Source of the DNA: Aphrocallistes beatrix | Lineage: Eukaryota > Porifera > Hexactinellida > Sceptrulophora > Aphrocallistidae | Direction of reading: 5' to 3' | DNA: 64,000 bases | Assembly (NCBI GenBank): GCA_963281255.1 | Contig: OY725498.1 | Coordinates: 4,402,001 to 4,466,000 of the forward strand | Part shown: one piece after another, positions 3,778-55,529 of the stretch | Layout: each line of letters begins with the position of its first letter | How positions within the stretch are numbered: position 1 is the stretch's first letter | Notes under the pieces: model-generated | What the model was told of the DNA's origin: nothing | Seen by the model: the letters and a program-made list of their open reading frames with translations, nothing else | Databases searched by the model: none | Position numbers and translations under genes: made by a program

Positions 3778-6700
3778 CTATACAGGGCAGCTTCTATCAG
3801 CTGTGTTTGGACCGAATTTGGTGTTGGAAGAGCGTTTGGTGTGAAACTCAACATAGCGTACAGGTGGACTAAGTTGACTCCCCCTGTTCACTGTGCCGAG
3901 ATTCAATTCAACTGATGAGGGAGTTGTACAGCGTTTCTTTTGCCATGGAAGCGCACCATCTCTATGCATTTTCTTCAGCGTGTATGCAGATACAACTACC
4001 ATTATCATTATTATGATGATCAGGATGGTGGAGAATGCTCCGGTGATTGAGTATAGAATCAACATGTTAGTACTGAAATGTCCGTTGTTAGTGACGGTAG
4101 CTGGATTCTGTAGCTCAGGAAGGGTTAGAACCTTCTTGAGAGAGAAGAAGGTAGGATTGTGGATCGATTGAAGGAGTGCGGCTGTTTCTTGCTGTGATTT
4201 GAATACGTGGTACTGGTTATTTTCCCTCAATTCTGAAACCGTCATTACAAAATAGTTTCTAAAAGGGGGAATATATATATATGAATAGCTTTAGAACTAA
4301 TTATCAGTCCCTTGAGTCTCCTTGCATATAAATTATAAGATTGAAAACGGTCGAGACTCAAGAGTTTTTATCCGAACGCTATGCAAGCTATGGAATAATT
4401 TCAATTTCATGTAACTTTGTTAGTTAACCAGAATTTTAAGAGCGAACAATTGAAGTGCTGCATTAGAAAGACTTACATTCCGTCCTTGTAATCGCCGTAA
4501 GTATACAATTGTACAGCGCTGCTGTCTCCATTGGAAATCAGTTTGTATTCGAGATAAGAGCATATAATGGCAAGGTTCAGTTCTCCTGTGGTGTTGAACA
4601 TGTACACGACTCCAAATTCATTGAGCCAGCTGGGTAGGTTATCTAAACCGATGTTTTCTAAAGCGCTACACGCTCTGCTGATTTTAGGGTTACAAGGTCC
4701 TATTGCGCACTCCAGTTCGTTAGAAGTACATTTACAGTTTTGGCAAGCTTCATTCTCAAATGTTCTCCCCATATCATCTAATAGTTGTGTCCGTATGACA
4801 CTGCCTTCATAGGTTAGATCTCCGTTCTTCAATTCACATGCGTCTAACGTTATTTCTATGGGATTAGGGTGTATAAAATCTTTGTAATTGTATCGAATCT
4901 TTTCTAGGGGAATTTAAAACTAACCATCATTACAGCTAGGACAGCACTGCCCAGGATGAATGGTGGATACTTTACATATCAATCTCGGACAGCTGAGCTC
5001 AGTACAGATGGTGACGCCGTTCCCGTGGCATGTACAGCTCTGACATCCATCCTCCCATTCAGCTCCCACCGGGACTTGCGTCATATTTCCGGTGAGACAG
5101 AACTCCGTGAGTTGTATGGAAGTGGTGACTGAACTCACAGTCGATGTCTCTGTGGGTGTTCCAGGATCTCTGCAGTCAGGACAGCACTCTCTTTCCCGGT
5201 AGAATTGCTGCGTGGCCGGACACTCGAGGGGTGGGCAGCTGTTCTGAATGCAAACCGTACGTCCTCGGAGACAAATACAGCTGTGGCACGCGTCTGGAAA
5301 CCATCTCTCATTTTTAAAGTGGACAATTCCGCGATGGAGACAGGTTTCATTATAAGCTAGAATAATTAATAAATGTTTTCAACTCTTTTGTGTCTATTTT
5401 TCAAGTTTTTTTCTAACATTATAATTTACCTGGTAGACAGTATTTTTGGTCGCAGCAGTTTCCTGGTTCGCCTGTGCCCAAACTCTGAGTCACACTGCTG
5501 AATCCATCCGGGCAGGATATTTCGTCACATTCCATGCATTCGCAAGTCTGTGTTTCTTCATTCCAAATGGAATCTTCAGTGCACATTAAGTTGGTTGGCG
5601 GTTCTAAATTATAAATTGCTACATAAATGATGGAGATTATCTACTTTGTCATATCTATGAGGTACTGTGTAGTTCTATTACTCAATACTAATTAAATGTT
5701 ACTTGATAAAAGAAGTTTTATTGAATCAATTTTTATCAATTTGCATTTGTTTAGCATCACACAAATAACTCATCATCCTTTTCTCTTTGATCATTATTTT
5801 CCTAAAATTAATGATATATATGTTCAAACGTAATCGAGCTGTTAAACTTTTAGGTGCTCGATTATCAAGATAGTCTCAGAGGAATACACATGATGATCAA
5901 GTATGCGATAGATTTCGTTCTAACAGATGTCAATTACTCTGAATTTTCTGATATATCAGTCGCTAGGTTTCTAAAAAGCCACTTAAGATAAATAAAACAT
6001 ACTTTATTTTAGCATTAGCATACCTAGCTTCTAATAATTACGTTTACCATGAAAAAAATGACAAGACATGGAAGCCAATGTTCTAGGCTCAATTTTAAAA
6101 GTTCTCGTTGATATCAATTGATTGGATGATAGAGACATGATCGGATTCATGGAAATAACGAAAAATAAAAGATTTTTTTGTTGAACTTTGAAACTCGTAG
6201 AGATAGATAGCTACATTTGAGATACTAAAATTCTATGAAAGAAATACAAGGCTTTGCATTTATCGATCAAAAAAAAAGAGAATGATATTTCAAAAAAATT
6301 TCAGCCTTATAAATGTTTATTATTCCATTTTTATATAATCTATTCAAATTAAGCATTTTTATATAATCTATTCAAATTAAGCTTTATCAAAATTCAGAAA
6401 CATCCTAAAATATTTATGGTACTCTCGAGGGAAGTTAATCTTATCTTAAATAAGTATCATACATTCCCAGCATTTGAACTGACAAGGAATTAATGGATGT
6501 TTCTAACTCACGAACTTTTGTGCAAGTATTTCCTTAGGTTTGTATGAGGATTCTTAAAAAGTTGAACAATGCGAGTTACAAGGAGTAAGAAAATTGGCGT
6601 CAAACGAGAGCTAGAAGATTTGGAAGGAAGCCAAGAGGAGAAGTCTCAGACGAAAAAACAAAAAATCACACCAGATTGTGTCTCGCATAAATTAGTCATG

Positions 6701-33569: not shown

Positions 33570-34620
33570 CTAAGAGGTGTGAAAATGGACACATTTCCAT
33601 TTCCAGTCAAAATTCTTCCACACACGAGTTTCAGGTATCTCAACTGCTGCATACTTTGAATCAGATCCAAGATAGGCGATTATTTTTGTGTAGAAAATAC
33701 ACGCACCATTCGTTCCAATCATATGTACGATCGGATTAGTGATAGACACACGAGGTTGCCTATATTCACGAGTTTCCAATTGGGGACTGTAGGTAGTGCA
33801 GTCTGGATCAGACAACTCCTGATAGAGTTCATTATTACGGTACACCATTGCTTCACTAATTCGCTCGGTAATTGCAATTATATCTACAGTGAAATCTGAT
33901 TCATAGTGCCTGAGGTTATCTGTCTGCAGAGGCTGAAGCTTATTGATTTGAGATGTTTTAGGGGAAATATCCATGGGCTTTTTGTGATTTGTAGGACACC
34001 CATCTTCTTCAAATAGTTCTTGTATGGGGTTAAGTTCAGTTGCACGTGTATTCATCCCCTGTCCTTCCTTCAATAGCATTTTGAATCTGTTTGACATCAT
34101 TACTGTATGCCCAATCACTTTCCATTTCCGTCTTGCTTTACTAAATTCTATTAGATCAATGATTGTTTGTTGCCTGTGAAGTTTCGAGGTGACAGTTTCG
34201 CGTTTCGCGATCCAATTTTGCCTAAGAGCCTGCTTGGCAGTGATACGATTTCGAGGATCAAACTCTAGCATTCGATCTATGAGAGCTTTAGCGCTATCTG
34301 TGACGTCATTCCATTGTGAATCCGAGAAATCATAACTCGCATTCGTTATCATAGATTGGAGAACTTGTGGGTTGTCATCCCAGAAAGGTGGAAATCCAAC
34401 TAAGATCACATATAGAATGACCCCACACGACCATATGTCAACTGGTTTGGAGTAGGGCCTATGGAGTAATATCTCAGGTGAGATATAGCATGGTGTGCCG
34501 GCCCAGTCATGATACTCTGGATCTTCGCCTTTCACCTCTTTAGCTAAACCAAAGTCTGCGAGCTTAACATGTTTCTCGTCTCCGTTGGCGGTTAGAAGAA
34601 GATTCTCCGGCTTGATATCC
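33570..34620 (-). CDS. CAMK2: CaMKII terminal exon, cassette A (intact DFG)
   Basis: 349 codons plus stop. C-lobe features: [21 protein letters not shown] (Mg-binding Asp present), [31 protein letters not shown]. The autoregulatory segment reads [20 protein letters not shown]; Thr in HRQQT is the Thr286 autophosphorylation position and the following basic amphipathic stretch binds calmodulin. The linker is longer than in cassette B. The C-terminal part ([20 protein letters not shown] to [10 protein letters not shown]) is the hub domain that forms the dodecamer. Expected to be an active, calmodulin-switched kinase. Confidence 0.9.
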
Positions 34621-37600
34621 CTAAGAGCAAATAACCAAGTGGAGATATCGTATATAGTGATGCCTACAATTCTACACATTATATTTTTCACAACTTCCTT
34701 TTAAAATCGGATATATATCAATATGCAATACAGAGGTTCAGGGCAGATGTTACAATAATGCTTAACTCCACCACTGCTATACACGTATTCACCTGACGTT
34801 TGGATCTGTGAATCTAGAACAATAGCTATATGCATTTTCAACTTTTTGTCAGTGTAAGGACTTGATCTTGGTTTAGAGCTTACTTGACCAATAAAACATA
34901 ATTATTAACAAGCTAACTAAAATTACATTTCAAGATCAATATATTTATCAAAGTGAATAATATGCTTTATTTCCATCTACAAAATAAATACAATATACGA
35001 ATAGGGAGACATTTAGTTCTGAAATAAGTGTATAAAGGGATAATTCTAAATTTGCTAAACAATTGAAGAATGGAGATGCACACATTTCCAACTGCCTTCA
35101 ATGCTTTCCCATAAACGAGTTTCTACAAACTGATGAGTGACATGCTTACTCTCTTTAGTAATAAACTGAATAAGTTTGGTATAGGAAACGCATGCCACAT
35201 TATCACCGAATTTTCTCACATTCGGACTGGCAATAGTTACTTGTACATTATCGGAATAAATGGGCTTATCTGGTTCAATTTTAGTGCAGTGAGGTGCAGA
35301 GAGAGAATTGATAACATTTGTGTTATTGGTGATCACAGCTTCAGATAATTGTGTAGTGACAGTAACCATCTCACTGTAAAAAGTACTTTCCTTTGAGAAA
35401 TCAGGTTTGCTCAAGTTAGCTGTACAAATGGTTGGGCTTCTAACCTTCTCATTCAAAATCATGTTGAATCGCTGAGTGCACAATGCACTGATAATGGCGC
35501 TTTTGAGTTTCCGACGTGCGTTGAATTGACTCAAACCTTGGATGGTACTCTGTCGGTGGATGTTGGAAGCATATTTTCCAGGGTCTTGAATCCAAGGAAC
35601 TTTCAGCGCCTCTCGCGCTGTCATGCGTTTCTCTGGATTAATATGAATCATTCGAGTGATCAACGATTTAGTGTCATCTGCAATGGCATCCCATTCGGGA
35701 GAATAGAACTCGTATTTCCCTGTAGCTATGAGATTAGAAAGCTTTTTTTCATCGTCATCCCAAAAAGGAGGATATCCTACCATTAAAATGTATAGGATTA
35801 CTCCACATGCCCACATGTCCACTGGTTTCCCGTATTTTTCTTTTTTAATTATTTCAGGCGAGAAGTAACCGAGGGTGCCTGCCATCTTATGCTCGCCAGG
35901 ATTGTCGTCTTGTACTCTCAGGGCTAAGCCGAAATTCGCTAGTTTGATATTCGCTTTGGGATCAGTGCTTGTTAAGAGCAAATTCTCAGGCTTGATGTCC
36001 CTATCAGAAAATAATCAAAATGCAAGAACAAAAACGAGCCTCTTCAATTGAGAAATGAAATGCTATCGAAATATGAAGTAACATACAAGGCATAGTTATA
36101 ACAACAAATCGTTAAACAATGTTCAAAGTTATTCTGAAATCAGTGTATACATAATTCAATTGAACACAGAAAGGATACAAATTTGCACCAAAACAATTCA
36201 GTACTTTATGTCAGAGTGGGCAAGTAGGCTACCATAGGAAACCACGAGGCTCCACAGGATTCAATTTTACGAAATGATTGATAAGACTCGGTTTAGGATT
36301 AATATAGATATCGCTACAAAAGTATGTTTTAGAACCTAGTGCAATCTTGCGACATTAGTAGTGAAACCATTCGAAAACTTGTCTGCAAGATTCGCTTTGA
36401 TTTTGTACCTCTGGGGTTTTTCGCAAATGAATGTTAATATTATTCTGGCACAGCTAAAATTTAAATTCAAGAAATGCGATAATATTGATTTCGAGATAAT
36501 AGACAGAAATGTTGTGTATGTAAAGTGAACATGAAAAAACCTTAAAACTATTAATATAGATTTTAATCAAACTAATTACTTTATCATTTGGCATCTCAGC
36601 TGACAATGAACACGATGTTAACTTCCCACAAAAACATATCTGGAGATCAAAACGTTATCAGTGCAGCAATTCTAAATTGAAGAATTTCCAACTGATTGAA
36701 TTTAATATTCCCATGACAATAACTATAAATTATTACTTCTCGCATCTGTGTCAATTGTGATACAAAATCTGAAATATAATAGGTAAATTATGTGGTAACG
36801 TGGGTTGTATGGACAAGGATTTCGTAAGAAATATGGTTTGAGAACACAGTACGAACAAAACTTTGGTAGCATGGAAGGTTGCTCTTAGAATGCAACATCA
36901 AAGTATCACTCATAAGGCAACCAAAACTAGCACATCTGACATGGACAAATATTAGTAGAGAAATTGATTCAAATTCGAAGTCAATGATCTTGATAGAGAG
37001 CACATGTGATTGTAAAGGTCATCTTCATTTGATTAAGAGTTGATGACCAGGTCATTTAGTTGTGATTCGTTGAATATATGAAATAGTTTTAAAACTCCAA
37101 TGCAGCTAATGCAAGTTAAACTAGAATTAGATTCTAGAGATCGTCACGCATGCAAATTCAATAAATTTGATTATTAGGAGAAACAAGGATCATTTGGAAT
37201 GTAAACACTCGCAATGTGTAGTTATATGTTTTGTGACACGAATTGTTCCACACATCTTTCGCTAGGAAAAACCAATCTATTTCCCCAATACGATTCTAAA
37301 AAAGTATATTTGTAGTAGTTCTTAATTTTATTATACAAGCGCGGTTCGAAATGCCGTGATATTTCAAATGTTTATAAAAAAAGTGTGCAAAACATGCAAT
37401 TTTCATATTCCTAAGATTTGCCAGTTCGACAATCAATTCAGACAAAGAAAAACAAATTCTAGAGCATTTTAATATATAAGATAAAATCTAAAAATGATAA
37501 AACAGTTGTTAGTACAATTAAAAATTATCGCTGTCAATTAATTAAGTTAGTAATAAAGATTCTACAAGAGAGGACATTAACACACATAAAGAATTTGCAA

Positions 37601-40600
37601 TATAATGTTATAACTCTGTTTACGTGAAACATAGGAGGTATTTTCTACTTCTATAAAAATCTACCACATTGAGATATTACACTTGTTGAAATATAATCAT
37701 AAAATGTCCTATGATAACATCGGGATATTACAGCATGTTAATTAGTACCCTTCGGCTGGCGTTGGTTTTTTTCTATTTATAGTAAAGACCCAAACTTGTA
37801 TGGCTTCCCCGCCTAAAATAGCTTGAATCGGAAATGACGCAACAAAACACCTCGCAAAGCGCGGGATTTATTAAATCATTTCTGAAACTGTATCGTTGCG
37901 TTAGGTAATTTCCGGTTTAACCCATTTTGGGAGGGGAAGTCATATATTTCTATAAATAGATTTTACCGCATGCATTACTGGCCTGGTGGGCAAACTAGTC
38001 TGTTTCCCTCGTGTTACATTGTACGTGAGGAGTGTGAAGTACTTAGTATACATTTTACCTGGCAAAGGGAGATGAAGCAATGCTGTTCATGACTGATAAG
38101 AAGTTAAATGTGTAGGATTCAAGTTGCTTGCATAACGCTAGTATTGTATAATAACCAATTAAAAAGTGCTCTGAGACCCAAATCTGAACAAAATGAAGAG
38201 AAATTAATTGTAATAATTGAACTATTTAGCGCTACATTATACATTATGAACGTAATATTTTGGGTGTAGAATAGCACTATCTGCAATTTATGCCTGCATC
38301 ACGGTATCTTTAACAAGACCTCGAATATCATCTGATTCTTCAGCATTAAATAATTTCAACTTAATTTGTGGAGAATAAATGCAATATGAACAGAATGGAC
38401 ACCTGCTCATTTTGGTGGATTTTGAGGGCATTTTTTTATCTATTTAGGGATTCAATTATTCGGATCAAATACAAGACTACGTAAACACTGCACTGTATAA
38501 ATTCCTCTACAACCTGTTCTAGTTCCAACACATGGATTCAACGAAAAAGGAGTCTCATTGAAGAGTTGGTTACTACAGGTGACTTTACGTATTCTAGATG
38601 CAACATTTCGGTTTGTTTGACAAGAAAAGGATAATTAGATTCTTGTTAGAAGATTCTGTAAACTGTCCCAGATATCTCATGAATGAATCGACAAGGAGAC
38701 ACAGTATTATATTAAAATGACAAAGAAATTAATCTAGAAATCTTAATCAATACTTGGCCAATAGGATCGAATTAACATAAATTAACTGATGCACATGTCA
38801 ACGCGATGGTTGAAATTACATATTACGGATAGGATCGATCGATCTTATTTCATTGTGCAATGCAATCTAAGCCAATCCCTCCCACTAATCATATCATGAT
38901 ATAGATACTTTCTGAAAAGATCATCCGATCCGGGAATTGTGTACTAGTACAGTTTAAGAATGGAGTTAAAATCACCTTTTAAGGCGAGGATGCTTCAATA
39001 CTTCTTTCTAGAACTGAAAGTTTTATCAGCACTGAGACCAAATCTTAACCATAAATATATTAAATATATTAAATCATTAAGAACTTAATAAAGGATTCAA
39101 CTTATAGTAATCATGACAACACTTGGCAGTAATAGACACGAAGACCTACTGCTGAAGCTGAAGTGTGCAGTCGAAATCGTTTTTGACCCGTTTTTTGCTA
39201 GGCCTCTGTAAACATTGTTTATTAGTAGTATTGACTCCATTACAGAATACTCGGGTTTTTGTCCGTCGGTTTCTTTGTCGCCTAGGCTATGAAATTAATT
39301 GACAAAAGTAAACTACTCCGACTGCATTATGCTATATAATTGACACTAAGACTTCCTCTCACGTGCAAAATATGTATTGAAAATATGACAAGCTTAAACC
39401 ATTGATACCAAAAGTTTTTTATTCCGCAAACGTATCAAGTTAGAAAGCAAAGAAAACTGTACTAATAAAGGGTAGTTCTATAACATGTGGATGTGAAAAC
39501 GTAATAAGAACTTTTAGTTTCTACTAAATTATTAGTATTAGAATTTTCTAGTTTACAAGTACTTTGGTCAGCTGAATCAGTGTTCTGATTATCACAACTT
39601 ATTCTGTGGGTTGAAATTTAACAAAATATTTGGCTCAATTAATCAAATTAATTACTATATATTACCAGCTGGTACCTGCTATTATAATCATTTGATATGT
39701 TGCAAAGGGTACAAATCTTTGCAACTCATGATAATACTGTGAATCTATGACTAAGTTTGCAGAAAAATATGAAAAGAGAGCTCAAGAATGTTGGACTTAA
39801 ATTCCATTTGTTTACGTATTCAATTCGCTTAATAGTTCAAGGTGTCTAAAAGGTGCCAATAAACATATATATCCGCATAATCGGGACAACCGCTTAATTG
39901 GGAGAAGTCTCCAGGAACGGAATGGTTCCTATACATAGAAGCTAATACTAAATTTCATCGGTTAATTGGGAACTCCGCTTAATCGGGACAAAATAACCGA
40001 GATCAAAGTGTCCCGATTAAGTGGAGTCACCTGTACGTAAAATACTGTGTTTTTAATAAACAAAAGCAAATCTAATCAACCGACTCTGGACATCGGAGAT
40101 CTTAACTCTCTCTAGTAAACACGAGCCGAACTAATGGAGAGAAATCAATTCGACAGGAAGAGTCATACTAAGGCTGCTAATGTAAAACTATCAAACGAGA
40201 ATTCTTGAATTTGCACAGATTCCCTTTAAATAGCATTACTATTCGCGCTAATTCGAATATTATAAGAATGATTCATCTAAATAACACGAATTTCGGATAA
40301 AAGGTGAATGTATGCGTAAAAAGAGAAATATTTAAGCAATGCCTTCCAATGCAAAAAGGAATTTCGTTCCTGAATAAAATTACATAATAACGTGATCGAT
40401 AAATTAAATAGAGAATGATTAGAATCCTAACAGTGGATTTAGATGGAATCGTAAACAAAACGTTCAAGATAGGAATAAGTAACTGGCTTCAAACATCTGA
40501 CAAAAAATCTTTAGATCATGGAGAAAACTGCGAAAAATGCATCTGTCAAATATATCTTGCCATAGCTTGACACTATTGTTTACACAGATTTTCTTGACAG

Positions 40601-43600
40601 CTAAAAATCGAATTCTCATAACAGCACATCAGCGGGACAAGAAACAGGAGAACGCGTCAGATTTCTAACAGAGATGTAAATTTAAAAGAAAGCCTTTGAA
40701 ATTCTTATCTGGAAATGAGTGCAGACGACTTGGTTGTGTATCTGTGTCGAGATGATAAAATAAATCGCTTCGTGCTCTGATGCAACTCACACCCGACTGT
40801 TCGTATAAATGATTATGAGTCGAAAAATTGCGGTTGATGGGAATTCAAAAAATGTTTGATACTAATGATTATCATATATGTTTAATAATTTCAAATTATC
40901 GGATGGAGAATGGAGAGAGATAACTATGCAAATACTAAAACTAGACTTCTATAGACTATTTTGACGAGCACAAATATTTTAATATAATATTGCTATCAAA
41001 ACGAACGTGGTTTCTAAAATCATCCACAATTTGATTTACGTATATAAGGGAAACCGTGTACGAGTATATATATTTATGAGATGATTCATCCCGACAGAGG
41101 AATTTGTTGTAATAATCAAAAAAATTCCTTATGATTATTTCACAGGTGTTTTAAATTCAGAATAAATCATAATTATTAGAACTTGAGGGACGTAAAAGAT
41201 TGACATTTTTAAGCGATGATAATTGACTCATCTTTGACTGATACGATTTTCGTAGTATGACAAGCATAAGATCATATCATTTCTTGGATCTAAAGATGTA
41301 ATGATTCCAGTACGTATTTCAAAATAATTAGGTCACTTTTTAATTTGAATATTATTTCAATGAGATTAGAGTAAATGCACTAAACTACTCAATCAAGTTT
41401 GGGCCGGGTCGCTAGGTCAGACATTACAGATTCCTAATCGAATCAGCTGTTTAGGTAATTATCTCGAGATTCAGTTTATTTATTGTAAATATAAGTATCG
41501 CCTTTTCTCTAGATTAAGAAATTTTTATCCATTTTAAATCGACTCCGCTTAATAAAAAAAGAATAATACTCACACATAGAAGCTAATACAAAATATTTTC
41601 GGTTAATAGGGTTCTCCGCTTAATAGGGCCAAAATGTCCTCTGACCGATGTGATCCTATTAAGCGGAGTCGCTTATATTTATATTTACATAGGTACATAT
41701 ATCCTCTCTCGTAAAGTCTGCATTCATTCTTTTGTACCCTCCTAACTAAGGGATTATCTGGGAGCGAGAGACGCTCCTTTAGGCGTATGATTTTAGGCCT
41801 GAAAGGGTTTAGGAGCGAGGAAATTCAGACTATTATCCCTATATCATAATGCTATTCACCGATTTAGGTGTAAATTTATGGATCTAAGATGGAGGAGCGT
41901 ATCTCTGGAGGGCTGTATAAGACCCTGCTTCTACCCCTTAACCATTATTCTCAGGTTTGGACATACAAAGTATGTTCTTTCCTAGCGACCCATCCCATTA
42001 AAGTAAGATTTATTTGATTGTGATTTTTATTTTTGATGATCTTTCAGAAGCGAAATAGTTGAATCAGATAAAATATTAAAATGAAATATATACATGAACC
42101 AAATTCGTATAAAATTATTATTTTTACTTAATATGCTTGTAGAGAGAAATCTTGTGAGAAAACATGACTTGTTCTATCTACAGCAGTTGCAAATCCTTGA
42201 CAACTTTCATACATCGCTTCTGTTTGTGATCGCATGTTGTATATCTCTTCTTTAATTTTTGAAATGTTTGTAAGCGTTTCAGTTGATTTCTTTTCAATTC
42301 CCTGTCTCTTCGCATCTGTTTCCTTCCAGAATCTCTGGACATCTTCATCTTCTTCGCTGCCAGGGACTAGAACACAATCTTCGTAGAAAAAGAACTGATC
42401 AACATTAATTTGAATTGGCATCTCTTCTTCTCGTGTGTCCTTCAATTTCTTTTCAATAAATTTTTGTGCCAAAAAAGGGATGAAAGTCAATGAGGCTCTC
42501 TGCTTGATAGCTTTACCAACTCGAGACATGTTGTTATAATATTCAGATGATGTTTTAATAGTTTTAAGTTTTGAGTTTAAATCTAGCACTACTAGAATCC
42601 TTTATATAGTTTTTTTTCTGCAGCCATTCTACGCCATCATTTGGCTGAAGCCAGGCTAGTTAGTATACAGTGTAGCTGTCTGTACGTGATATTGCATCAC
42701 GATCAGTGTTATGGATAACTAGTAGATTATATGGGGTTGGACGTCATTTAAACTCACTATCAGATGTGGATTTCCCACCCCTTTACGACATAGTAAAGGG
42801 GTGGATAGACGCTAGTTCCAATGATGGTAGCTACGCAATATTAATCATGGAAATGTCCCAAAGAAATATTGTTCGTCAATAGATGAAAGAATTGATTCGA
42901 TATGAATTGGTTGTTGAGTGGAAGGCAGACATTTTAAAAAGTAAATATTACTTGAGTTTAAATCTAATTTGGTGAAATCCTTGCAGTTTCTTAGTTATCT
43001 GGAGTTCATCAAAAAGATTACACCGAACTGAAGAAATGTGATTGAGATCAGATTTTTAGGAAACATCAGCATTCGGAAGTTTCTCATAAAGCCACTGATA
43101 TATCATTGAAAAAGTAGCACACATACACACTTGCTGACACATATGTTGACTAGATACAGGTGTGGTTTATAATTTAAGGAGAACTTGAAGTGATAAGATT
43201 TTTGGACTGCAGCTGCATCAACTACAAAGTCTCAGAGCATGTCTCAATAACTATGTACATTACTCACATATATGATATGACCTCCTGGTCTAAGAAGAAA
43301 TCATTTCGCAACACATTCAGAAAGTTTTACCTTAATTTATTAGAGCAATATAACGTTTTTTCAAATATATTGCAGAGAGGATTCAAATCATTTTATCACA
43401 GATTTGAGAACCACAGTGTTCCCACTCAGAAAGATACTTTTTAATTGGAATTATCAGTAGACTGAGAGTGGGAAATAAAGATATATTAGTTACGAATTCA
43501 CCGTAGAAACACGATTACGCTCGTATATTAATGTCTCAAGTTGTCTAACCAATAAGGATATGACTAAATCTCGGCATTGTTCTGAAATTAAAACTTGCAG

Positions 43601-46600
43601 AGGAATATTGAACTGGTGAGAAGACAAATAATACCTGAACTTTTGGTGCTAATAAGTACACAAATTGAAAAGTTTCAATGAAATGACCACACTAACAAGT
43701 TAATTATTGGAATAGATTTGTAGGAAAATCTACCCCAAAACACCCTACAGTTTTAAAATATATTTATGCTCTAAAATGGCAGTAAATACCTTAAATCATC
43801 ACTGAAAACCACTTGGAATTTTAATGGCAGAGTACATTCTTCATATAATACCACATATGTTAGATCTAAAACTACCAATCGTATGTAAATGCACAACCTT
43901 TGGGTCAACATAAATGCAATGAACTATTTCAAAGCCAGCCCAAGCGTCATCTGATTTCGTCAATGATAAGAAGCAGGTTAAGTTTTCCATTTTGAACAAG
44001 TCAAATAGTTCCAATACGTCTTAACGGTTCCTATGTAATTATAGGCCAGTTCTGTTATCAGGTGACGAATACTTACAAAATAAAATTCCATAAATTACAA
44101 ATATTTTAAAAAGAATTTTGATTTCAATCTAGCTCAATTGCAATTCGCAACAGAAGACTAAGATGAAGTTGTCATTGATTATTAGGAGACAAAAAAAGTG
44201 GCACAATTAAGGCCAGGATATTAATCCTATAAATCCATTAAACAGTTGATACATTTAGAAGAATAAGGATGATTGAGATTGAGAGGCAAGACAAGTTTTA
44301 AGTGAAAGACAATTAAAAAATTGTGTTTCCAAATCGTAGAGCTTCCTTCCAAAATTAGAAGCGTTATATTACACATACATCCATATATACACATGAATAT
44401 ATTATGTTAAAACACTTCCAAATACACAGGTATTTGAATTCATTATAAGAAATGGAATGCAAGGTAATAATTGATAAAAGCATCCCTTGGTTAATCTCGT
44501 CTACTCAGTTCTGGGCTGTACATATATAGAGGCTAATCAATTGAATAATTGAGGCCATATGGAAGCGGGTTTAATACATGTAGAAAGAATGAGGGTTGTT
44601 ACAGGTGGCTATTTCTGATAAAACACAACTATGTCTGAGAAACAATTATATAGAAAGTTTCTGTAGTGTTAGATCAGAATTCCAAGTTGTTACTTTGGTC
44701 GATTAAGATGCAAAGTTTTATGTTAATTCTCATTCTTTTCATATCAAACTAGAATTGAATGCAGGTGGCTAATAAAAGTCGGGAATTTAAGGTATGGGAT
44801 TGGATGTTATTTATTTATTCAGGCAATCAAAAACTATTCATAGTAACCGGATGCTAATATTACTTCCTGGTTGTATGAAATCTGAAATATAGCCTTTTCA
44901 TATATGTTTAAGAATATATTATTTTGTTATTCATTTCGTAAGAGAAAAATAAATTGATCAATTCTACGTCAAACACAAGAAATTAGTCAACATTTCACAA
45001 ATTTGTTCCTCTTGCCCCCTGCAGGCAGGTTGAGGTACGACACTATGGTGGTACCAATCTGACGACCTAAACTCTGTACCAATCAAGTTCTCAAATTCAT
45101 GAGCTACGTTTTATGGCCGAAAATTGTGGAGGAACCCTGAAATTATTTATACAATCACTACTATACATGTTTTGAACCACAAAAAGATACTATGAATTGA
45201 TTTAACATTGCAACTAAATAACCTCTGAATAAATTAGAAAAATAGCGATAGAAATCCATAATAATTGCTACAAAAGAGAGCTCATCGATCGCGGGCTAAA
45301 ATGCAACATCAACATCCTAATTAACCAAACTAAAGAGTAGCTTGAGTTGTTTTCAAGATGTTGCAACATGCACTGCTACACACATACAGGGATTAAATAA
45401 GCAGTAAGAGAGGAAGGAATTATAAATAAATCACGATAGGGAGGTGAGATGTAGAAGAGTGGGAGTTCATATCGATGAGAAAATACTTTACCATTTCCTT
45501 AAACTTTGTAACTTGGACATCGAATTCAGGTGGTTTAACAGCTATTGATGAGTCAGAATGTTTCTAACCACGCCCGAAGTGAACATAAAACATCATTTGT
45601 GAACATAATATGATGCATTTGTGTAATGTATGCAAACATAGAGTGAAGAAAGAATAATACTATCTGTTTAAGTAATATTTCTCTCTACACCCCACAAAGA
45701 GCAAAGTCCATAGCTTGCAATGGATAGCTCATTCAGTCTAACTCTAACGCAGTCTCTAATCATTCACTGTACGTAGGCAAATTAAATAAATATTAATCAA
45801 TTCGCTGAATGATACCATATTGAGGTGAGAGATAAACATAGTTGTGACTAACAAAGTTGGAAAGTACAATTGTGTATATGTGTTAGGGTAGTTTGTAGAA
45901 AAAATGTATTGGGAAAAAGAAAATACAGTCGACTCCGCTTAATAGGGCCACATCGGTCAGAGGACATTTTGCCCCGATTAAGCGGAGGGCCCTATTAACC
46001 GAAAATATTTTGTATTAGCTTCTATGTGTGTGAGAGCTATTCCGGTCCTGCCAAAAGTGGCCCGATTAAGCGGCTGACCCGATTAAACAGTGGCCCTATT
46101 AAGCGGAGTCGACTGTATTGGGAAATACAAATATTTTGGAAGTACATTTTTGGAAAAATTATCTGGGAAAAAAGTTACATTTTGAAAAACAGCCATATAA
46201 TATTCCTGACTGTACTATAGAGAAGTGGCACAAGATAACTATAGCCATACCTGTGAATTATATTGTTGTCATGGCAATACGCTACTGCTTCCAAGATCTG
46301 CTGGATGCACCGGCTAGCTTCTGACTCAGAATAGTACTCTCGTTTTACGATATCATCAAAGAGCTCGCCTCCAGTGACCAGATCGAATATCATATAATAC
46401 TGCATGTCATCTTGAAATGTGTTGTGGAGACGGACAATATTGGGATGCTATAGAGAAAGTTTTGACTAAAATCAATTAACGAAACTGATACACTATTTCA
46501 TCAGAACGCACTGTGACGAAATGGACGTAATTAGTTAATTATCTCAAATGAAATGCTTGTGCAAGGTCAATTTGCCATTCAGTACTATGACAAGGTTTTC

Positions 46601-46996
46601 AACAGATTAGATGCATTTTTTTCTGAAGACTAATGAAAATTTGATTAAGCGTTATGGTAGTAGAGAAGTAGAATTACAATACAATTAGATTAGAAGGGTT
46701 AGATCATGATTCAAATGAAAAGATCGGAACAATTTCGTATATTATCGGGATTGATTGTTAATATGTTAAAGAGAAGCCAAGTTTACCTGAAGCTGTGAGC
46801 AGATCTTAGTCTCGTTCTCAATTCGAGCATTGAGAACGCGTGAACGTATTATCTTAACTGCAAATTCTTCCTTTGTCTTTTTGTTCCGACATCTTTTCAC
46901 AATTCCAAATGTTCCTTGGCCAAGTGTCTCCAAAGTCTCAAATTGATCGAGAAACCCAGTTTGTGGTCCTGTAGTTTTCGTTGTCTTCGCTGCCAT
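33570..46996 (-). CDS. CAMK2: Calcium/calmodulin-dependent protein kinase II, with alternative terminal exons
   Basis: One locus inferred from splice compatibility. Exon 1 (46996-46787, 70 codons) and exon 2 (46447-46251, ending phase 2 at CAC AG|GTATGG) encode the kinase N-lobe through the HR of the catalytic loop. Two downstream exons each start with G GAC/GAT ATC AAG CC(T/G) after a TAG acceptor, completing [11 protein letters not shown], and run without further introns to a stop: cassette B (36000-35055) and cassette A (34620-33570). Joining gives kinases of about 450 aa (B) or 485 aa (A), both with kinase, regulatory segment and association (hub) domain, the CaMKII plan (human alpha is 478). 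Neither cassette has its own N-lobe: only about 430 bp separates them. The intron between exon 2 and cassette B is about 10.2 kb and holds a nested gene. Upstream noncoding exons may exist. Confidence 0.85.
34621..35054 (-). other. Spacer between CaMKII cassettes
   Basis: 434 bp with no kinase N-lobe coding. An AATAAA signal on the minus strand (34971-34966) lies 84 nt past the cassette B stop, which would end B transcripts before cassette A. Confidence 0.6.
35055..36000 (-). CDS. CAMK2: CaMKII terminal exon, cassette B (NFG variant)
   Basis: 314 codons plus stop, parallel to cassette A but clearly diverged. It keeps DIKPENLLL and [20 protein letters not shown], but the DFG motif reads KLANFGLAL: the Mg-coordinating Asp is Asn (codon AAT). 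The activation-loop end is [11 protein letters not shown]. The regulatory segment [20 protein letters not shown] keeps the Thr286 position and calmodulin site; the inhibitory Thr305/306 positions appear as Ser/Ala (SAIISALC). The hub domain is intact ([17 protein letters not shown] to WKCVHLHSS). It is probably catalytically weak or dead yet able to bind calmodulin and co-assemble; this is inference. Confidence 0.88.
37773..37959. mobile_element. Inverted-repeat element (CTATTTATAG ends)
   Basis: A 187-bp sequence with long imperfect inverted ends: CTATTTATAG at both termini, then TGGCTTCCCCGCCTAAAAT versus TGACTTCCCCTCCCAAAAT, then CGGAAATGACGCAAC versus CGGAAATTACCTAACGCAAC. It is a MITE-like foldback in the CaMKII intron. 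Target duplication not clear. Confidence 0.6.
39864..40033. mobile_element. Pogo-like MITE, CGCTTAATCGGG family (diverged)
   Basis: Contains several CGCTTAATCGGGAC-type words in both orientations and the family core ACATAGAAGCTAATAC followed by ATCGGTTAATTGGG. The right end GTGGAGTCACCTG precedes TA; the left end is degraded. Confidence 0.6.
41395..41998. repeat. Possible larger inverted-repeat element with nested MITE
   Basis: GGGCCGGGTCGCTAGG near 41401 and the complement GGGATGGGTCGCTAGG ending near 41990 could be element termini about 600 bp apart. A pogo-like MITE (41536-41674) lies inside. A hairpin GGAGCGAGAGACGCTCC occurs at 41772-41788. Boundaries and target duplication are uncertain. 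Confidence 0.3.
41536..41674. mobile_element. Pogo-like MITE, CGCTTAATAGGG family
   Basis: Ends ATCGACTCCGCTTAATA and TATTAAGCGGAGTCGCTTA are inverted. The interior has CACACATAGAAGCTAATACA, TATTTTCGGTTAATAGGG and CTCCGCTTAATAGGGCC, shared with the copies at 45926 and 49678. The terminal CAGT is lost at both ends. Confidence 0.65.
42128..42529 (-). CDS. Uncharacterised 133-aa protein nested in the CaMKII intron
   Basis: The ORF is open for 20 further codons upstream but without ATG; the first ATG gives 133 aa beginning [20 protein letters not shown]. The N-terminus is basic and amphipathic; the middle has [20 protein letters not shown] and an acidic stretch ([14 protein letters not shown]); the C-terminal half is helical, probably coiled coil ([20 protein letters not shown]). 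Strong hydrophobic/charged patterning in an otherwise stop-rich intron suggests a real gene, same strand as CaMKII. I do not recognise the family; a cryptic exon is the alternative. Confidence 0.5.
   Translation of the reverse strand: MSRVGKAIKQRASLTFIPFLAQKFIEKKLKDTREEEMPIQINVDQFFFYEDCVLVPGSEEDEDVQRFWKETDAKRQGIEKKSTETLTNISKIKEEIYNMRSQTEAMYESCQGFATAVDRTSHVFSQDFSLQAY
45926..46115. mobile_element. Pogo-like MITE, CGCTTAATAGGG family (best-preserved copy)
   Basis: A 190-bp element flanked by TA, with perfect inverted ends CAGTCGACTCCGCTTAATAG extending to GGGCCAC. Inside are more GATTAAGCGG words in both orientations and the family core (complement of ACACATAGAAGCTAATACAA). It lies about 135 bp from the CaMKII exon 2 donor. 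Confidence 0.85.
46251..46996 (-). CDS. CAMK2: CaMKII exons 1-2 (shared kinase N-lobe)
   Basis: Exon 1 (46996-46787) begins [12 protein letters not shown], then [15 protein letters not shown] (glycine loop) and [13 protein letters not shown] (ATP-anchoring Lys). The alpha-C region ([14 protein letters not shown]) is about four residues shorter than in vertebrate CaMKII. Exon 2 (46447-46251) encodes [51 protein letters not shown] and stops inside the catalytic-loop HRD. The 339-bp intron between them has no notable content. In-frame codons upstream of the Met exist but lack another ATG. Confidence 0.88.
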
Positions 46997-49988: not shown

Positions 49989-52900
49989 TCACTTTTTCAC
50001 TTGCTTTCCATACAGCTTCTTGTTGATTAAGAAAATTAATAGATTCACATTCACTTTCACCTGACTACCGATTTTACACACTGCCACCCCGTCAAATTGT
50101 AGCTGTAGGAGATCTTGAATAACTAGGTCAGTTTTCTCGACGAGATTACCGAGAAATTTCGCGTGCACTTCAAACTTAGACATGTCAACTTGGCGAATCT
50201 CAATATTTATACTTCGATACTGGAAACGCTGGATACCCTCAATCTCGAGTATGACGCCTTTGTCGTAGAGTTTCTGAGCGGTGTATTTGATGGTTTTAGG
50301 CTTAAAATCCGCACCTGTACCCCCGGTCGCAATCTTGCCAGCTCCCTTGCTGCCTCTCAGCGCTTTGGCCCTAGCCATATTTTCGAGCGCGGAATTGATA
50401 TACTGCTGGTAGAAATCGTACTGCTCATCATGGAATTTCTCTTTCTCTTCGAGTTGCTTAAGTGTGCCGTTCAGTCGTTTCTTTTCAACACGTCGCTGCT
50501 TACGATGCCGGGCTTGGTTCGTGATATCTTTCGCAATAGCGTTTATAATTTCCTGATAGTGGTCCTGTTTCGAAACGAGTCCTTCTTCCTCTAGAATATC
50601 CAAATTCCGTTTTATCTTATTCTTTACTGTATCGATATTCGGGTTCGTGGTGTGTAGTGCGGTAGTGTAGCGATGGATCATAAACGCATCGCCATGTCCC
50701 TTCTGTATCTGCTGCTGGATCATTTCGTCGAATTCCTTTCGAATGGCTTCAGTGGGTGGAGTGTCCAATACCTCAGTCAGTGTTTCCCCTCCCTGGATAC
50801 GTAGCAGGTCAACGCACATTCCTTTCGTCTGCACGAAGATAGCTCTAGAATCTGTTGGCTCGTTAATATCGAACTGATCGTGTTTACTAGAGAGAGTTAG
50901 GGCGATTTCAGTCTCGCAGGCCTCTTGCCAATTCTCCTTCGCCTCTTCAGTTGAACTCGCAGTAAGCTCAGCGATATCTCCGACCAGATTCCGGATGTGT
51001 GAATCTGCGCCTAAGTCAGCGAGAACCTCATGAATAGGATCTGCAAGATCGGGAATGATAGTAGTGGCATGCTCCAGAAGAAGTTTGTGTGTGGAGACGA
51101 TGTCTTTGGCAGATAAGCGGACAATCGGTTTAGAGATCTGAACAAGATCCGTGAATTCATCGAACCCGAATTTCTCCTCAGGCGTTTGCACAGTTGAGAG
51201 TTTCAACATGTACACCTTGAATATCTGGTACTTCTCTTGTATGAACGGGTTTAACCCCTCGAGTGGATTGTTCTTGGGCACAGTCTTGTTGGTAGCAATA
51301 TTTTGAAGTACTCTTGAAATGCTAGAGACGTTTTTTCGTTGTTCCACTGTTAACTGTCCTGCACCCTTAGAAGGGTCTAACTCGATCAGTCCATAACTCT
51401 CGGGATTCACAATGATAGGGTTGATGTAACGGTAATACACGAGGTTAGAGAGAGTTTTCACAACCTCATCTTCGCTAACTGCAGGGAATTGTTTGATTAA
51501 ACACTTGCGTACAATCATAGCGATGTACCGTATGCCATATGGAATCTTGTTGATATTCTCAGTTATCACTGTCACAAGCTCAGTCACCAATGGTTTGATC
51601 GCCTCGGCTATAACTGACATTTTTTCCTGTACCTCAGGGTGCTCGATAGCCTTTTCATTGGTAACCTCGTAAGGTAGTGAGGTTGCAGTGCCTGTTTGTG
51701 ATTCCATTAGGTTCACCATCTGTTTGTAGATATCGACTGGTGTAAGGTAGAATCGTGTGGGAGAGTTGATCATTACGTTAACGAGAGGGCGTAGCAACTC
51801 TTTGAAATGGTTGTGTGCACCCCCTCTGCTCTCACGTGTAAACTTTATGAGTATCTTGACGGCTATACTGTTCATGGTACTGATATCTTGTATCTGTATC
51901 ACTTTAACGTCTATTTCAGCGTGCAGTGCTACCTGAATCATTTTCATGAAAAGGTACATTTCACGTGGATTTGTCCCGTAATTGTAGAGAGCGAGCACTA
52001 CATTGTCCAGGAATTCATTCTTCTTGGTGACACCCAGAAGGTAGAGCACTTTAGCGATGTAGTTTGGGTTTGTTTGGAGTAGATAGAATAAATGTTGGTA
52101 GGCATCAAGTAGCTTCCGAGAGGAGGCAGTGAAATTCTTGATTCCATGACGGTTAGATCGCTTGGCTAAAGCTTGGTCGCGACGTTTCTGTACTTTGCTC
52201 GTGGTGTTAATGACATCTTTCAGAGTGATTTGGTTCCGAATTAAAAGCCCAATTTTTATATCCAGATTGGTGAGATCAACTTCTTGGTGCTTTAGATGCT
52301 GCATTTTGGAAGTGAGATCGCCTCGGAGTGAGTTGACTGTCAATTCTTCAGCGATGTCTGCATCACTCTGATCTAGCAGCTTCAGGAACTTGTTGAGTGA
52401 AGCCACTGGAGGATTCTTCTCAGCGACTAGAGTCTGGTAATTCTCTTTGGCCTTAATTCCTCTCCAAAATGCTTGTACGCGGATAATAGACGCCACACCA
52501 TCTTCGAAATGTTTCCTCCTAAGGTAGAGATGGTGTCTGGCTATCCATCCCCTCACAAACCTCTGGATGTGTAGAACAGAATCAGTACTGTTCTCAAAAA
52601 GAATCTGACGGTCTCTGATATGTTTCCTCACGAGGTGACCCTTAACATGGGCTTGCACGATTTGAATACGCTCTTCATTATCTTTATAGTATTGCAATTT
52701 GGCTTGTGTCCGTTTTCGCACATGATATCCTCTTATAAGCGACTGTAATTTAATGATCTGAGGTTCGTTCGTTTGGAAGAGCATCCATCTGGAGTGGTCA
52801 GCTGTCACTCTTGTCACGACTTCTTGTATCTCTTCCTTATTCAAGTACGAACTCAACGCGTCGAGGGGTGGAGCCGGTTTTACCCATGTGACTATCTCGG

Positions 52901-55055
52901 ATTGGGTGTTGTACCAGAAAGTATGTGACTGTTTGCTCTTTAAAACGAGGCATTTCCCTTCTGGAGGAGTAGACGCTTGTTTCTGCTTGAAACTTTCCAC
53001 TAAATGTTGGTGATAATCTTCAGCACAGCTGTCAGAGATAGACAGGAGGTATGAGTGAGGGTTTTGCAATTGGACGATGAGAATGGAAGCTTTTCGTTCA
53101 TTATCTAATGACTTATTTATAACACAAATGACCTGTCCATGTGACCTCGCTTCTTGATGCTGTTGATTCGCTTTACGCACGCAATCCTGGATCTGTTCCA
53201 AGGTCAGAGGGACCCCGGGAGTGGACTTAGCTTGCAAGGTGAGGACTCGGAGATAGAGAGGAGCTAAGTGCTCTTCATGCTCGAAATCCTCAATGAAATC
53301 ATCCTCGCAACCTCGTTTCAATAGCTCCTGAAGGTTCTCCTGATGCTGCGTTGAGATGGTGCTAGAGACGGATCGGACCAGTTCTTGCATCTGATTCTCA
53401 CGCTCAATCTCATGATTCATAATCTCAATACAACTCTGTATCTCTTCGTGTGTGAGCTTTTCCTCACCTTTCTGTGACTTTATTTGCTCTAAAGCAGCGC
53501 TATACAACTCTACATTGGCTGCGATTATACCAGTCAATGACGCATCAGGATCCAAAAGGTTCACTAACACCTGGGAACTTTCTTGCTCCCCAATCGCTTG
53601 GTTTATCCGCGAAATCGCCTGAAGTTTCTTCTCATCGCAACTCGCTTCCTCGTTCATCTCCAACAGAATCTGGTGGATCTCTTCCTCACTCAATACTTCT
53701 CCTTCAGCTTTCGCAGTGAGCGCAGTTTGAAGGCCTCTCATATAATACTCGTTATAGTCAGGAACAAGCTCGTGAAACTCAAACAGTTCCCATTGCAACG
53801 CATCTAACAATGCAGTCACATCTCCATCAGCTGTAGCCTGGTTGACTGCTGATATTGCTGCGTCATGATCACGGCTTTCATCAGCTATGTTATTCGCGAT
53901 TACGATCAGTTTGTCTATCTCTTCAAATGTGAGATCTTCCATACCTTCTTGGTCGTATTTCTCTCTGCGAGATCGTGTGAGTATGTCCATGTACCAGACC
54001 ATGTTTTCCTGCTTAACGCTTGAGAACGAGGAACCAGTCAGTATTTCCATCAGAGACACGTCTTTACCTTGTCTCACTGCGTTATTAACCGCTTCTGCGG
54101 TTTCTCTCTCCTTGTAATCTTTCTCGGCGCAGTCGGCACTATAGTTCACCGACTCCACACTGTCCTGGATCTCCTCACGAGTGAGGTTATAGTCGTATGC
54201 ATCGAGTGTGCTTATTTCCACGCCTTTATCCAGACCACAAGCTCGCTTTTTCTTGTCTTTTATATCGAAAAGACTCGCTTGATACGTCTCAGATAGTTCT
54301 TCTCGCAGCCAGTCGGTTACCTGTACGGCTGGATTCCTGAGGGCAGAGATCGTCTCAGCTATCTCTTGCTTGTCAATGGCTTCGTTCACAGCCATAATAG
54401 CCGCATGAATCGCAGCTTCATCCTGTGTCAGATGGTCAGTTAGGATTCCATTAATCTTGCCGAATGCGGGCATCTTAATGTTATACTTATCAAGCTCTTT
54501 CGTCATTATGGAAATTTCTTCCTCAGTGAATTCCGCCTTATCGACTAGATCCTCTATGACGGGACCTTTTCCGAGTTTGTTGAGGTAGAGGGAGAGTGCG
54601 TGTAGGCAGTACACGACACGAGGCATGTTCTTGCGGTCGTACAAGTCTGTGGTTGTGGGGTAGAATATTTTGGGTAGGCCCATCTTTTTCATTGAGTTGA
54701 CCCAGAAGTTGATATTGTCAGTGTGTCGGAACTCGAGGCCTCTCTCCTGATATCGTTCCTGAAAGAGATCGTATATTTTCGTGAGTGGAACCATGTCAGG
54801 TGACATGAAGTTGGCTAATTTCGCGAGGAAAACTCCGTTTCTAAGCGCTTCTTCTAATTCAGTGCTAGCTGGTAACTCTTCCTTGATGCAGGCTTCGATC
54901 CATTGTTTGGTTTCCTCTAAATGGCAGAGGTATTCGTAGGCAATCTTGCGTTTCCGCATCTGATCCATCATGGCACCGCTTCGCTTTCGAGCGACTTGAG
55001 GCGGCTTAGGCGCCTTGCTTGGCGGGCTTGCATCCAGATGATTCGATGTAGCCAT
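49989..55055 (-). CDS. IQGAP: IQ motif-containing GTPase-activating protein (IQGAP)
   Basis: A single uninterrupted ORF of 1,688 aa (human IQGAP1 is 1,657). Scaffold binding actin, calmodulin and Cdc42/Rac at the cell cortex. Domains in order: calponin-homology domain about 40-155 (KQWIEACIKEELP, GVFLAKLANFM, DNINFWVNSM); IQGAP internal repeats about 200-690 built on AINxAI-like helices; a WW-like motif about 700-730 (HTFWYNTQSEIVTWVKP); four IQ motifs about 770-875 (IKLQSLIRGYHVRKR, IQIVQAHVKGHLVRK, LHIQRFVRGWIARH, IRVQAFWRGIKAK); RasGAP-related domain about 1035-1300 (VYYRYINPIIVNPESYGL); RasGAP C-terminal domain about 1580-1688. All family domains are present. Absence of introns across 5 kb is striking, since animal IQGAP genes usually have many; the gene nevertheless looks intact and functional. 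Confidence 0.96.
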   Translation of the reverse strand: MATSNHLDASPPSKAPKPPQVARKRSGAMMDQMRKRKIAYEYLCHLEETKQWIEACIKEELPASTELEEALRNGVFLAKLANFMSPDMVPLTKIYDLFQERYQERGLEFRHTDNINFWVNSMKKMGLPKIFYPTTTDLYDRKNMPRVVYCLHALSLYLNKLGKGPVIEDLVDKAEFTEEEISIMTKELDKYNIKMPAFGKINGILTDHLTQDEAAIHAAIMAVNEAIDKQEIAETISALRNPAVQVTDWLREELSETYQASLFDIKDKKKRACGLDKGVEISTLDAYDYNLTREEIQDSVESVNYSADCAEKDYKERETAEAVNNAVRQGKDVSLMEILTGSSFSSVKQENMVWYMDILTRSRREKYDQEGMEDLTFEEIDKLIVIANNIADESRDHDAAISAVNQATADGDVTALLDALQWELFEFHELVPDYNEYYMRGLQTALTAKAEGEVLSEEEIHQILLEMNEEASCDEKKLQAISRINQAIGEQESSQVLVNLLDPDASLTGIIAANVELYSAALEQIKSQKGEEKLTHEEIQSCIEIMNHEIERENQMQELVRSVSSTISTQHQENLQELLKRGCEDDFIEDFEHEEHLAPLYLRVLTLQAKSTPGVPLTLEQIQDCVRKANQQHQEARSHGQVICVINKSLDNERKASILIVQLQNPHSYLLSISDSCAEDYHQHLVESFKQKQASTPPEGKCLVLKSKQSHTFWYNTQSEIVTWVKPAPPLDALSSYLNKEEIQEVVTRVTADHSRWMLFQTNEPQIIKLQSLIRGYHVRKRTQAKLQYYKDNEERIQIVQAHVKGHLVRKHIRDRQILFENSTDSVLHIQRFVRGWIARHHLYLRRKHFEDGVASIIRVQAFWRGIKAKENYQTLVAEKNPPVASLNKFLKLLDQSDADIAEELTVNSLRGDLTSKMQHLKHQEVDLTNLDIKIGLLIRNQITLKDVINTTSKVQKRRDQALAKRSNRHGIKNFTASSRKLLDAYQHLFYLLQTNPNYIAKVLYLLGVTKKNEFLDNVVLALYNYGTNPREMYLFMKMIQVALHAEIDVKVIQIQDISTMNSIAVKILIKFTRESRGGAHNHFKELLRPLVNVMINSPTRFYLTPVDIYKQMVNLMESQTGTATSLPYEVTNEKAIEHPEVQEKMSVIAEAIKPLVTELVTVITENINKIPYGIRYIAMIVRKCLIKQFPAVSEDEVVKTLSNLVYYRYINPIIVNPESYGLIELDPSKGAGQLTVEQRKNVSSISRVLQNIATNKTVPKNNPLEGLNPFIQEKYQIFKVYMLKLSTVQTPEEKFGFDEFTDLVQISKPIVRLSAKDIVSTHKLLLEHATTIIPDLADPIHEVLADLGADSHIRNLVGDIAELTASSTEEAKENWQEACETEIALTLSSKHDQFDINEPTDSRAIFVQTKGMCVDLLRIQGGETLTEVLDTPPTEAIRKEFDEMIQQQIQKGHGDAFMIHRYTTALHTTNPNIDTVKNKIKRNLDILEEEGLVSKQDHYQEIINAIAKDITNQARHRKQRRVEKKRLNGTLKQLEEKEKFHDEQYDFYQQYINSALENMARAKALRGSKGAGKIATGGTGADFKPKTIKYTAQKLYDKGVILEIEGIQRFQYRSINIEIRQVDMSKFEVHAKFLGNLVEKTDLVIQDLLQLQFDGVAVCKIGSQVKVNVNLLIFLINKKLYGKQVKK

Positions 55056-55529
55056 ATTTTATGTTAAAATAAGGCCAATTTGACTATATAGCTATGACTG
55101 CTAATAGTTAGACTGTAGAGTAGAGCTAAGACTATTGTTTGCACCAAAGTTCTAAAATTTCATGAATCGTAGTTAGTTACTTATTCAGGATTGATGGGGG
55201 CTGGTTTTGTACGTAGAAAAATGTGATTTCGAATCAGAGGAGTGATCCTATACACTTATGGCTTAATTATGCCTATTTATAGCATTAAGAGTACCAAGCT
55301 TAAAATAGTATACATGAGCTGTACAACAATGAAATTCTGGGAAAATGGTTTACTTGAAATACATATATATTACTATAATGATGATTGACGATAGCCAAAA
55401 TATTGGAATGGCACAATCCATAAAAATGGACTTTCGCAGAGTACAATATTAGCAGTCGTTCTTTTTGCTGATCAGGCAATATAAATGCAGTACCATAGAA
55501 AAATACAAATTCTAATTAGGAATCAGGAA
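55056..55529. other. Intergenic IQGAP upstream / TRMT11 downstream
   Basis: 474 bp of AT-rich DNA between two minus-strand genes. IQGAP promoter presumably lies here; no repeat or core element is evident. Confidence 0.4.

Follow-up and report, generated by a model that had tools for sequence, protein, structure and literature searches.

At lola, shared 5' exons are joined to many 3' exons. A comparable arrangement is described for mod(mdg4), where one out of several 3' exons is attached to the common 5' exons (PMC12692577, in excerpt), and swaps between homologous exons are ancient and well seen at the protein level (PMC4465641, in excerpt). For CaMKII, whose holoenzymes are 12-mers, excerpts of PMC5882894 place alternative splicing mainly in the linker and describe it as uncommon in the other domains. 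The claim of an earlier note on this DNA that vertebrate isoforms differ in the linker is mostly right, with exceptions in two natural non-standard subunits, the kinase-free alphaKAP and the hub-deleted CaMKII-betaH (same excerpts). AlphaKAP arises through an alternative promoter and betaH through an internal splice site, and neither has a duplicated C-terminal half or a change in DFG. The MAGUK protein CASK has a CaMK-type kinase domain that keeps the Gly loop and the Lys and lacks the metal-binding Asp, yet phosphorylates without cations (PMC4718504, in excerpt). In glass sponges, feeding arrests are coordinated by action potentials that pass through syncytial tissue and are suggested to be calcium driven (PMC10280926, in excerpt), and the control of CaMKII in these animals bears on calcium signalling without nerves.

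Here we describe a CaMKII locus of the glass sponge Aphrocallistes beatrix, located in a 64-kb window (the whole stretch of DNA analysed), in which two N-lobe exons are followed by two homologous terminal exons, referred to as cassettes A and B. Similar to human CaMK2A and CaMK2B, the predicted proteins consist of a kinase domain, an RQxT autoinhibitory segment, a basic calmodulin segment, a linker and a hub, and their identity to human CaMK2A is 54% in the N-lobe and 52-55% in the C-lobe. Unlike in human CaMKII, everything from the C-lobe to the hub lies in one exon, this exon is present twice and one copy reads NFG; the hub is also 18-19 residues shorter and the start of alpha-C is shorter by 4 residues. 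The locus departs from mod(mdg4) and from the known homologous swaps in that the swap point lies inside the catalytic domain, at the HRD loop, and an active-site metal ligand is exchanged, and it departs from CASK in that A keeps KPEN, a CaMKII regulatory segment and a hub. Shared 5' exons with alternative 3' exons, homologous swaps and kinase-free or hub-cut CaMKII subunits are known; what would be new is the exchange from the catalytic loop onward with DFG altered. Among the papers listed by searches of open-licence PMC text, none describes a last-exon choice that exchanges all from the catalytic loop and alters DFG, and none gives an account of the CaMKII of Hexactinellida.

Structure of the locus

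Table 1. Coordinates of the CaMKII locus in the window, of its paralogues and of other kinases with Asn at the DFG Asp position
Feature	Position	Strand	Content
Exon 1	46996-46787	minus	70 codons; start codon, Gly loop GQGTFG, FAVK Lys, alpha-C Glu; Pfam Pkinase positions 1-56
Exon 2	46447-46251	minus	remaining N-lobe up to NNIIH, plus AG; Pkinase positions 57-122
Large intron, exon 2 to cassette A	46250-36001	minus	holds inverted-repeat elements and a 134-aa ORF
Cassette A, terminal exon	36000-35055	minus	C-lobe carrying NFG, then regulatory segment, a short linker and a shortened hub up to the stop
NFG Asn codon AAT (cassette A)	35936-35934	minus	position of the DFG Asp
AATAAA after cassette A	34971-34966	minus	begins 84 nt past the A stop
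Cassette B, terminal exon	34620-33570	minus	C-lobe with DFG, regulatory segment with one more residue, longer linker, shortened hub, stop
DFG Asp codon GAC (cassette B)	34556-34554	minus	
AATAAA nearest to cassette B	33254-33249	minus	begins 316 nt past the B stop
CaMKII paralogue C3	C3:6835213-6836625		
CaMKII paralogue C11	C11:4514845-4516152		
CaMKII paralogue C19	C19:3233869-3236164		
Kinase L072	C11:2775752-2776633		NFN
Kinase L123	C7:4719714-4720574		NFG

Exon 1 ends in phase 0 after CSQLQ (donor TCAG/gtaaac) and exon 2 stops in phase 2 within the Arg of HRD (donor ACAG/gtatgg). The acceptors read ctgatag/GGACAT for cassette A and gctcttag/GGATAT for cassette B, and both cassettes open with G, then GAC or GAT, then ATC AAG, which restores HRDIKPEN at both joins. 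Coordinates, phases and motifs thus agree with the earlier note, which had described N-lobe exons ending in phase 2 inside HRD and two exons resuming at the same codon. Its other observations of this kind are borne out as well, since the roughly 430 bp that it placed between the cassettes are 434 nt from the A stop to the first base of B, the proximal cassette does carry NFG, and an AATAAA does lie 84 nt behind A. When spliced in silico, exons 1, 2 and A give 450 residues and exons 1, 2 and B give 485, both open to the stop, and the Pkinase profile runs without a gap over the joins, continuing from exons 1 and 2 into positions 123-263 in each cassette (E 2e-34 for A, 1e-36 for B). Given that stops make up 6.9% of codons in the local introns, a frame without a stop has a probability of about 2e-10 for A and about 1e-11 for B, and these probabilities together with the homology rule out chance ORFs. 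The locus has the structure of homologous alternative last exons, with homologous 3' exons and same-phase acceptors behind one donor, each with its own stop. An AATAAA lies close behind cassette A, the one nearest to cassette B is more distant (Table 1), and a TATAAA variant follows cassette B at 33495. By pyrimidine content, the acceptors of A and B fall in the top 8.3% of the AGs of the window and the acceptor of exon 2 in the top 30.5%; as support for splicing, the acceptor strength of A and B is only suggestive.

A tblastn search of the window with the N-lobe and with both full proteins found no second N-lobe in its 64 kb: the N-lobe matches are exons 1 and 2 only, the C-lobe matches are A and B only, and all other matches are weak (E of at least 0.87). 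A separate N-lobe for cassette B was accordingly rejected for the window; the earlier note had held that the distal cassette cannot have one. In the genome-wide N-lobe search (best 150 of 157 candidates scored), two complete genes, on C3 (E 1.2e-33) and C11 (4.7e-33), come next after this locus; ordinary kinases and the C19 gene, matched in separate exons (2.6e-20), rank below them. The corresponding C-lobe search (best 150 of 179 candidates scored) gave at least 35 matches at E <= 1e-12, which fall on A, B, the loci of the three paralogues and further kinases, and members of the hub family were located at five sites of the genome, cassettes A and B being two of them. Neither search pointed to additional cassettes outside the locus. 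Among prokaryote genomes, 18 pattern matches were obtained and none codes for a relative; the pattern search of viral contigs gave no match, and for structural RNA the window has no Rfam match at the gathering score.

Kinase domain

Both predicted proteins have a CaMK-type Ser/Thr kinase domain, with Pkinase spread over exon 1, exon 2 and each cassette, and their best relatives among solved structures are CaMKII chains (E 3.1e-125 for A, 9.3e-118 for B). Among the catalytic landmarks checked against human CaMKII, a single one is changed in A, where the DFG Asp is replaced by Asn, and the Gly loop, VAIK Lys, alpha-C Glu, HRD, KPEN, SPE, DxW and RQxT Thr are retained. The activation segment of A is also altered, with GTPG changed to GTLG and WFGF lost. 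B retains the catalytic landmarks checked, including KPEN, DFG, SPE and DxW. With its altered DFG, A lacks a catalytic residue that is otherwise conserved, which is one mark of a pseudokinase, but its standing as a pseudokinase remains uncertain. The earlier note had opposed an active kinase to a probable pseudokinase; the missing Asp in A speaks for this, whereas A keeps all other catalytic landmarks checked, B is more diverged and CASK provides a precedent. Because CASK is active without this Asp, its loss in A is no proof of inactivity, and we would infer an active B and a dead A only with reserve.

For the frequency of this change in the genome, we compared 128 of 130 kinase matches (two N-lobe pieces were dropped) together with A, B and the C19 paralogue, one row having no residue at this position. 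By automatic alignment, Asn is rare at the position of the DFG Asp, occurring in 3 of 130 kinase sequences, A included, and the other two are listed in Table 1. Some of the 130 kinase matches lie side by side in clusters, each match in one open frame, at C4:5539647-5575404 (7 matches), C16:1920658-1939429 (3) and C20:1230636-1298473 (8).

Regulatory segment and hub

In both cassettes the kinase is followed by an RQxT site (HRQST in A) and a basic segment that is predicted to bind calmodulin, and the segment of B has one extra residue (FSKARRKW vs FNARRKL). The CaMKII_AD profile recognises the hub in A (E 4.1e-17) and in B (E 5.1e-16) through its second half only, covering positions 64-125 of 128 in A and 59-125 in B. 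Apart from a weak SnoaL_3 overlap in A, no Pfam family other than the kinase and the CaMKII hub matches the cassettes with an E of 0.001 or below. The span from MTAFEP to TTILNP measures 35 residues in human CaMKII, 34 in the C19 paralogue, 25 in C3 and 16-17 in A, B and C11, and it is over this span that the hubs of A and B fall short of the human one. This span is the part that forms the helices before the central strands. Of the earlier description of both cassettes as complete with hub, the presence of a hub in each stands, and its completeness does not. The C11 paralogue has a hub shortened in the same way as A and B.

CaMKII-betaH, a natural hub deletion of 26 residues in mammals, is impaired in holoenzyme formation, and a figure legend of the same source reports FRET of such variants with the CaMKII-alpha hub (PMC5882894, in excerpt). 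Since both hubs are 18-19 residues short, ordinary holoenzyme entry of A and B is doubtful, and the proposal that the A subunit can enter the holoenzyme is weakened by the short hubs and by the betaH precedent to something possible that should not be assumed. The assemblies would probably be smaller, or dependent on full-hub subunits such as the C19 paralogue.

Divergence of the two cassettes

The two cassettes are identical at 45% of residues in the C-lobe and regulatory segment (80/176) and at 36% in the linker and hub (49/136). Codon positions 1, 2 and 3 are identical in 57, 71 and 38% of the 176 C-lobe and regulatory codons and in 52, 64 and 33% of the 136 linker and hub codons. Where the first two bases of a codon agree, the fourfold-degenerate sites of A and B are the same in 14 of 54 cases (26%), where 25% corresponds to unbiased random bases with the composition taken as even. 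Fourfold sites close to random together with constrained first and second positions imply that selection kept both cassettes, and A and B are old paralogues. An unselected cassette would hardly stay open for so long, which suggests that both probably do something.

The first in-frame internal Met is codon 39 in A and codon 90 in B, and the codons ahead of it are conserved between the cassettes (20/38 residues for A, 49/89 for B). Because conserved codons ahead of the first Met need an upstream start, splicing to the shared N-lobe is favoured, and exon 2 offers such a start in the right phase for both cassettes. The frame of cassette B also runs unspliced to an in-frame Met upstream of its acceptor, from which an N-lobe-free product may be made. 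Of 78 residues invariant in four other CaMKIIs, B has lost 23 and A 15, so that B is the more diverged cassette overall, which counts against a simple view of B as working and A as decayed; in the linker and hub, B keeps 13 of 15 invariant columns.

Origin of the cassettes and relationship to the paralogues

In a tree calculated from HRD onward for six sequences (A, B, the three paralogues C3, C11 and C19, and human CaMK2A), A and B are joined with bootstrap/SH-aLRT values of 84/85 under the mixture model and 90/90 under LG+G4, which we take as moderate support for the clade. Trees in which A or B was forced together with C11, C19 or C3 are not rejected (six tests, p-AU 0.099-0.185); forcing A with human CaMK2A is rejected (p-AU 0.033) and forcing B with it is not (0.077). 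A tree with distant kinases as outgroup was set aside, as six of its seven inner branches were open and long branches met. In the linker and hub, neither cassette exceeds 31% identity to any other sequence compared, which leaves the value between A and B as the highest. Because of this hub identity, the adjacency of the cassettes and their equal phase, a tandem duplication of the terminal exon is the best account of A and B. The stretches before the two acceptors share as best match 18 bases at 94% (E 6e-4 in a comparison of 500 by 435 bases), and this similarity was not counted as evidence of shared origin.

The C19 paralogue has an intron at the same point, in phase 2 within HR/D, and we conclude from this shared position that the HR/D intron has long been present in this genome. 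The paralogues on C11 and C3 each consist of a single open frame. In the C-lobe and regulatory segment, identity to human is 60-65% for the three paralogues, 55% for A and 52% for B. Across this genome (100.5 Mb, 28 contigs) we found no CaMKII of high conservation, the three loci other than ours staying within this range.

Proposed alternative last exons and other explanations

We think it probable that the locus is one CaMKII gene with homologous alternative last exons, which encodes a catalytic and a Mg-impaired subunit. The earlier note had likewise proposed one gene with a choice of exon; the single N-lobe and the two homologous C-terminal exons long kept by selection support this part, whereas the use of either junction is something that we infer. 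A large terminal exon with C-lobe, regulatory segment, linker and hub would have been duplicated in tandem long ago. Transcription ending at the AATAAA at 34971 would lead to exon 2 being joined to A, and read-through past this signal would allow it to be joined to B, with both junctions presumably in use. The B product would be a calmodulin-gated kinase, and the A product would have a crippled Mg-ATP coordination while still binding calmodulin and carrying the autophosphorylation Thr. A would perhaps bind nucleotide and transfer phosphate poorly or not at all, and it might act as a regulatory, competing or scaffold subunit. What speaks against alternative last exons is that B has no close AATAAA, that the acceptors are only suggestive and that the clade of A and B has moderate support.

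The short gap from the A stop to B, with the AATAAA of A inside it, also has an operon-like appearance, and A alone could be spliced to exons 1 and 2 while B forms a separate downstream unit, free of an N-lobe and bearing a hub like alphaKAP, that is expressed through its own promoter, through the upstream Met that its frame reaches unspliced, or through a leader trans-spliced at its acceptor. Another glass sponge, Aphrocallistes vastus, is reported to have a spliced leader (PMC10282587, in excerpt), and among the products of CaMKII, alphaKAP is known to lack the kinase (PMC5882894, in excerpt). However, KPEN, DFG, SPE and DxW, all kept by B, matter for catalysis only with an N-lobe, the acceptor of B completes the HRD codon in the correct phase, and conservation extends over the 89 codons that precede its first internal Met, and we hold a separate B unit to be unlikely. 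With no N-lobe of its own found in the window and with more drift than A, B could also be taken for a relic, one cassette being the second member of an ancient tandem gene pair, which lost its 5' exons and is functionless now. Yet frames of 314 and 349 codons have stayed open, with the first and second positions constrained, while the fourfold sites came close to random, and B has retained 13 of the 15 invariant linker and hub columns, which makes decay of this kind very unlikely.

An Asp-to-Asn change at DFG usually abolishes phosphotransfer, and A has the KPEN Asn, which CASK lacks, so that the change is not common to A and CASK. Both points weigh against a version of the alternative-last-exon reading, and one compatible with it, in which A is a Mg-independent or weak kinase like CASK and the gene makes two active enzymes that differ in cofactor need and calmodulin affinity. 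We regard this as rather unlikely, although A has the Gly loop, the Lys, the alpha-C Glu, HRD, KPEN, SPE and DxW, is slightly closer to human CaMKII than B in the C-lobe and regulatory segment (97/176 vs 91/176), and CASK phosphorylates without cations despite its missing Asp (PMC4718504, in excerpt). AAT is one base away from GAT, and the Asn could in principle be an assembly error or an allele, or could be recoded to Asp by A-to-I RNA editing (AAT to IAT). The further changes nearby in A (GTPG to GTLG and the loss of WFGF) fit real divergence, and ADAR disfavours a 5' G, the base that precedes this A; we consider an artefact, an allele or editing to be most improbable.

If the locus does work through alternative last exons, it would represent a new way to control CaMKII, in which the C-lobe, regulatory segment and hub are exchanged behind one N-lobe, including the metal-binding Asp. 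It would also mean that a pseudokinase-like subunit has come from exon choice and not from a separate gene, and has been kept for a very long time (14/54 at fourfold sites), and that two enzymes differ only from the catalytic loop onward. More tentatively, and as a possibility that we would not call likely, the choice of polyadenylation site might determine how many catalytic subunits are made for each Mg-impaired decoy (or Mg-independent) subunit. The two kinds would have the same N-lobe, and their reduced hubs would assemble otherwise than in the classical ring; such a ratio could be a built-in dial on calcium signalling without neurons, in a lineage with calcium-type impulses through syncytia.

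Other features of the window and genome

Short elements with inverted ends like GACTCCGCTTAATNGGG are found in the window at 39860-40040, 41540-41670 and 45925-46110, and also in L026 at about 6009-6165. When up to 3 mismatches are allowed, such ends occur 9 times in the window, vs 0.28 expected, and a stretch similar to these elements occurs in the C19 CaMKII locus too. They are probably a small non-autonomous DNA transposon. An intronless ORF of 134 aa (42532-42128, minus strand), for which no Pfam family was found above the cut-off, lies nested within the large intron of the CaMKII gene, on the strand of that gene. Beside the CaMKII locus, the window contains a single open frame for an IQGAP-like protein (1689 residues) with CH, IQ, RasGAP and RasGAP_C (49989-55058, minus strand), and an open frame of 791 residues with a long tandem array of the 11-residue unit SPTPNSPLRVD (61281-63656, minus strand). 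With its long single-exon open frames and an ORF nested in a large intron, the window resembles the pattern of Aphrocallistes vastus, which has many single-exon genes, nested genes, a genome of 80 Mb and a spliced leader (PMC10282587, in excerpt).

Contig C28 (17,996 bases) carries COX1. Compared with animal COX1, TGA in this gene fits Trp, AGA Ser, ATA Ile and AAA Lys, and the contig also has what we take to be an atp9-like ORF. AGR read as Ser together with a mitochondrial atp9 is typical of glass sponges, and the contig thus points to such a sponge. Hexactinellida use a distinct mitochondrial code (PMC10695373, in excerpt).
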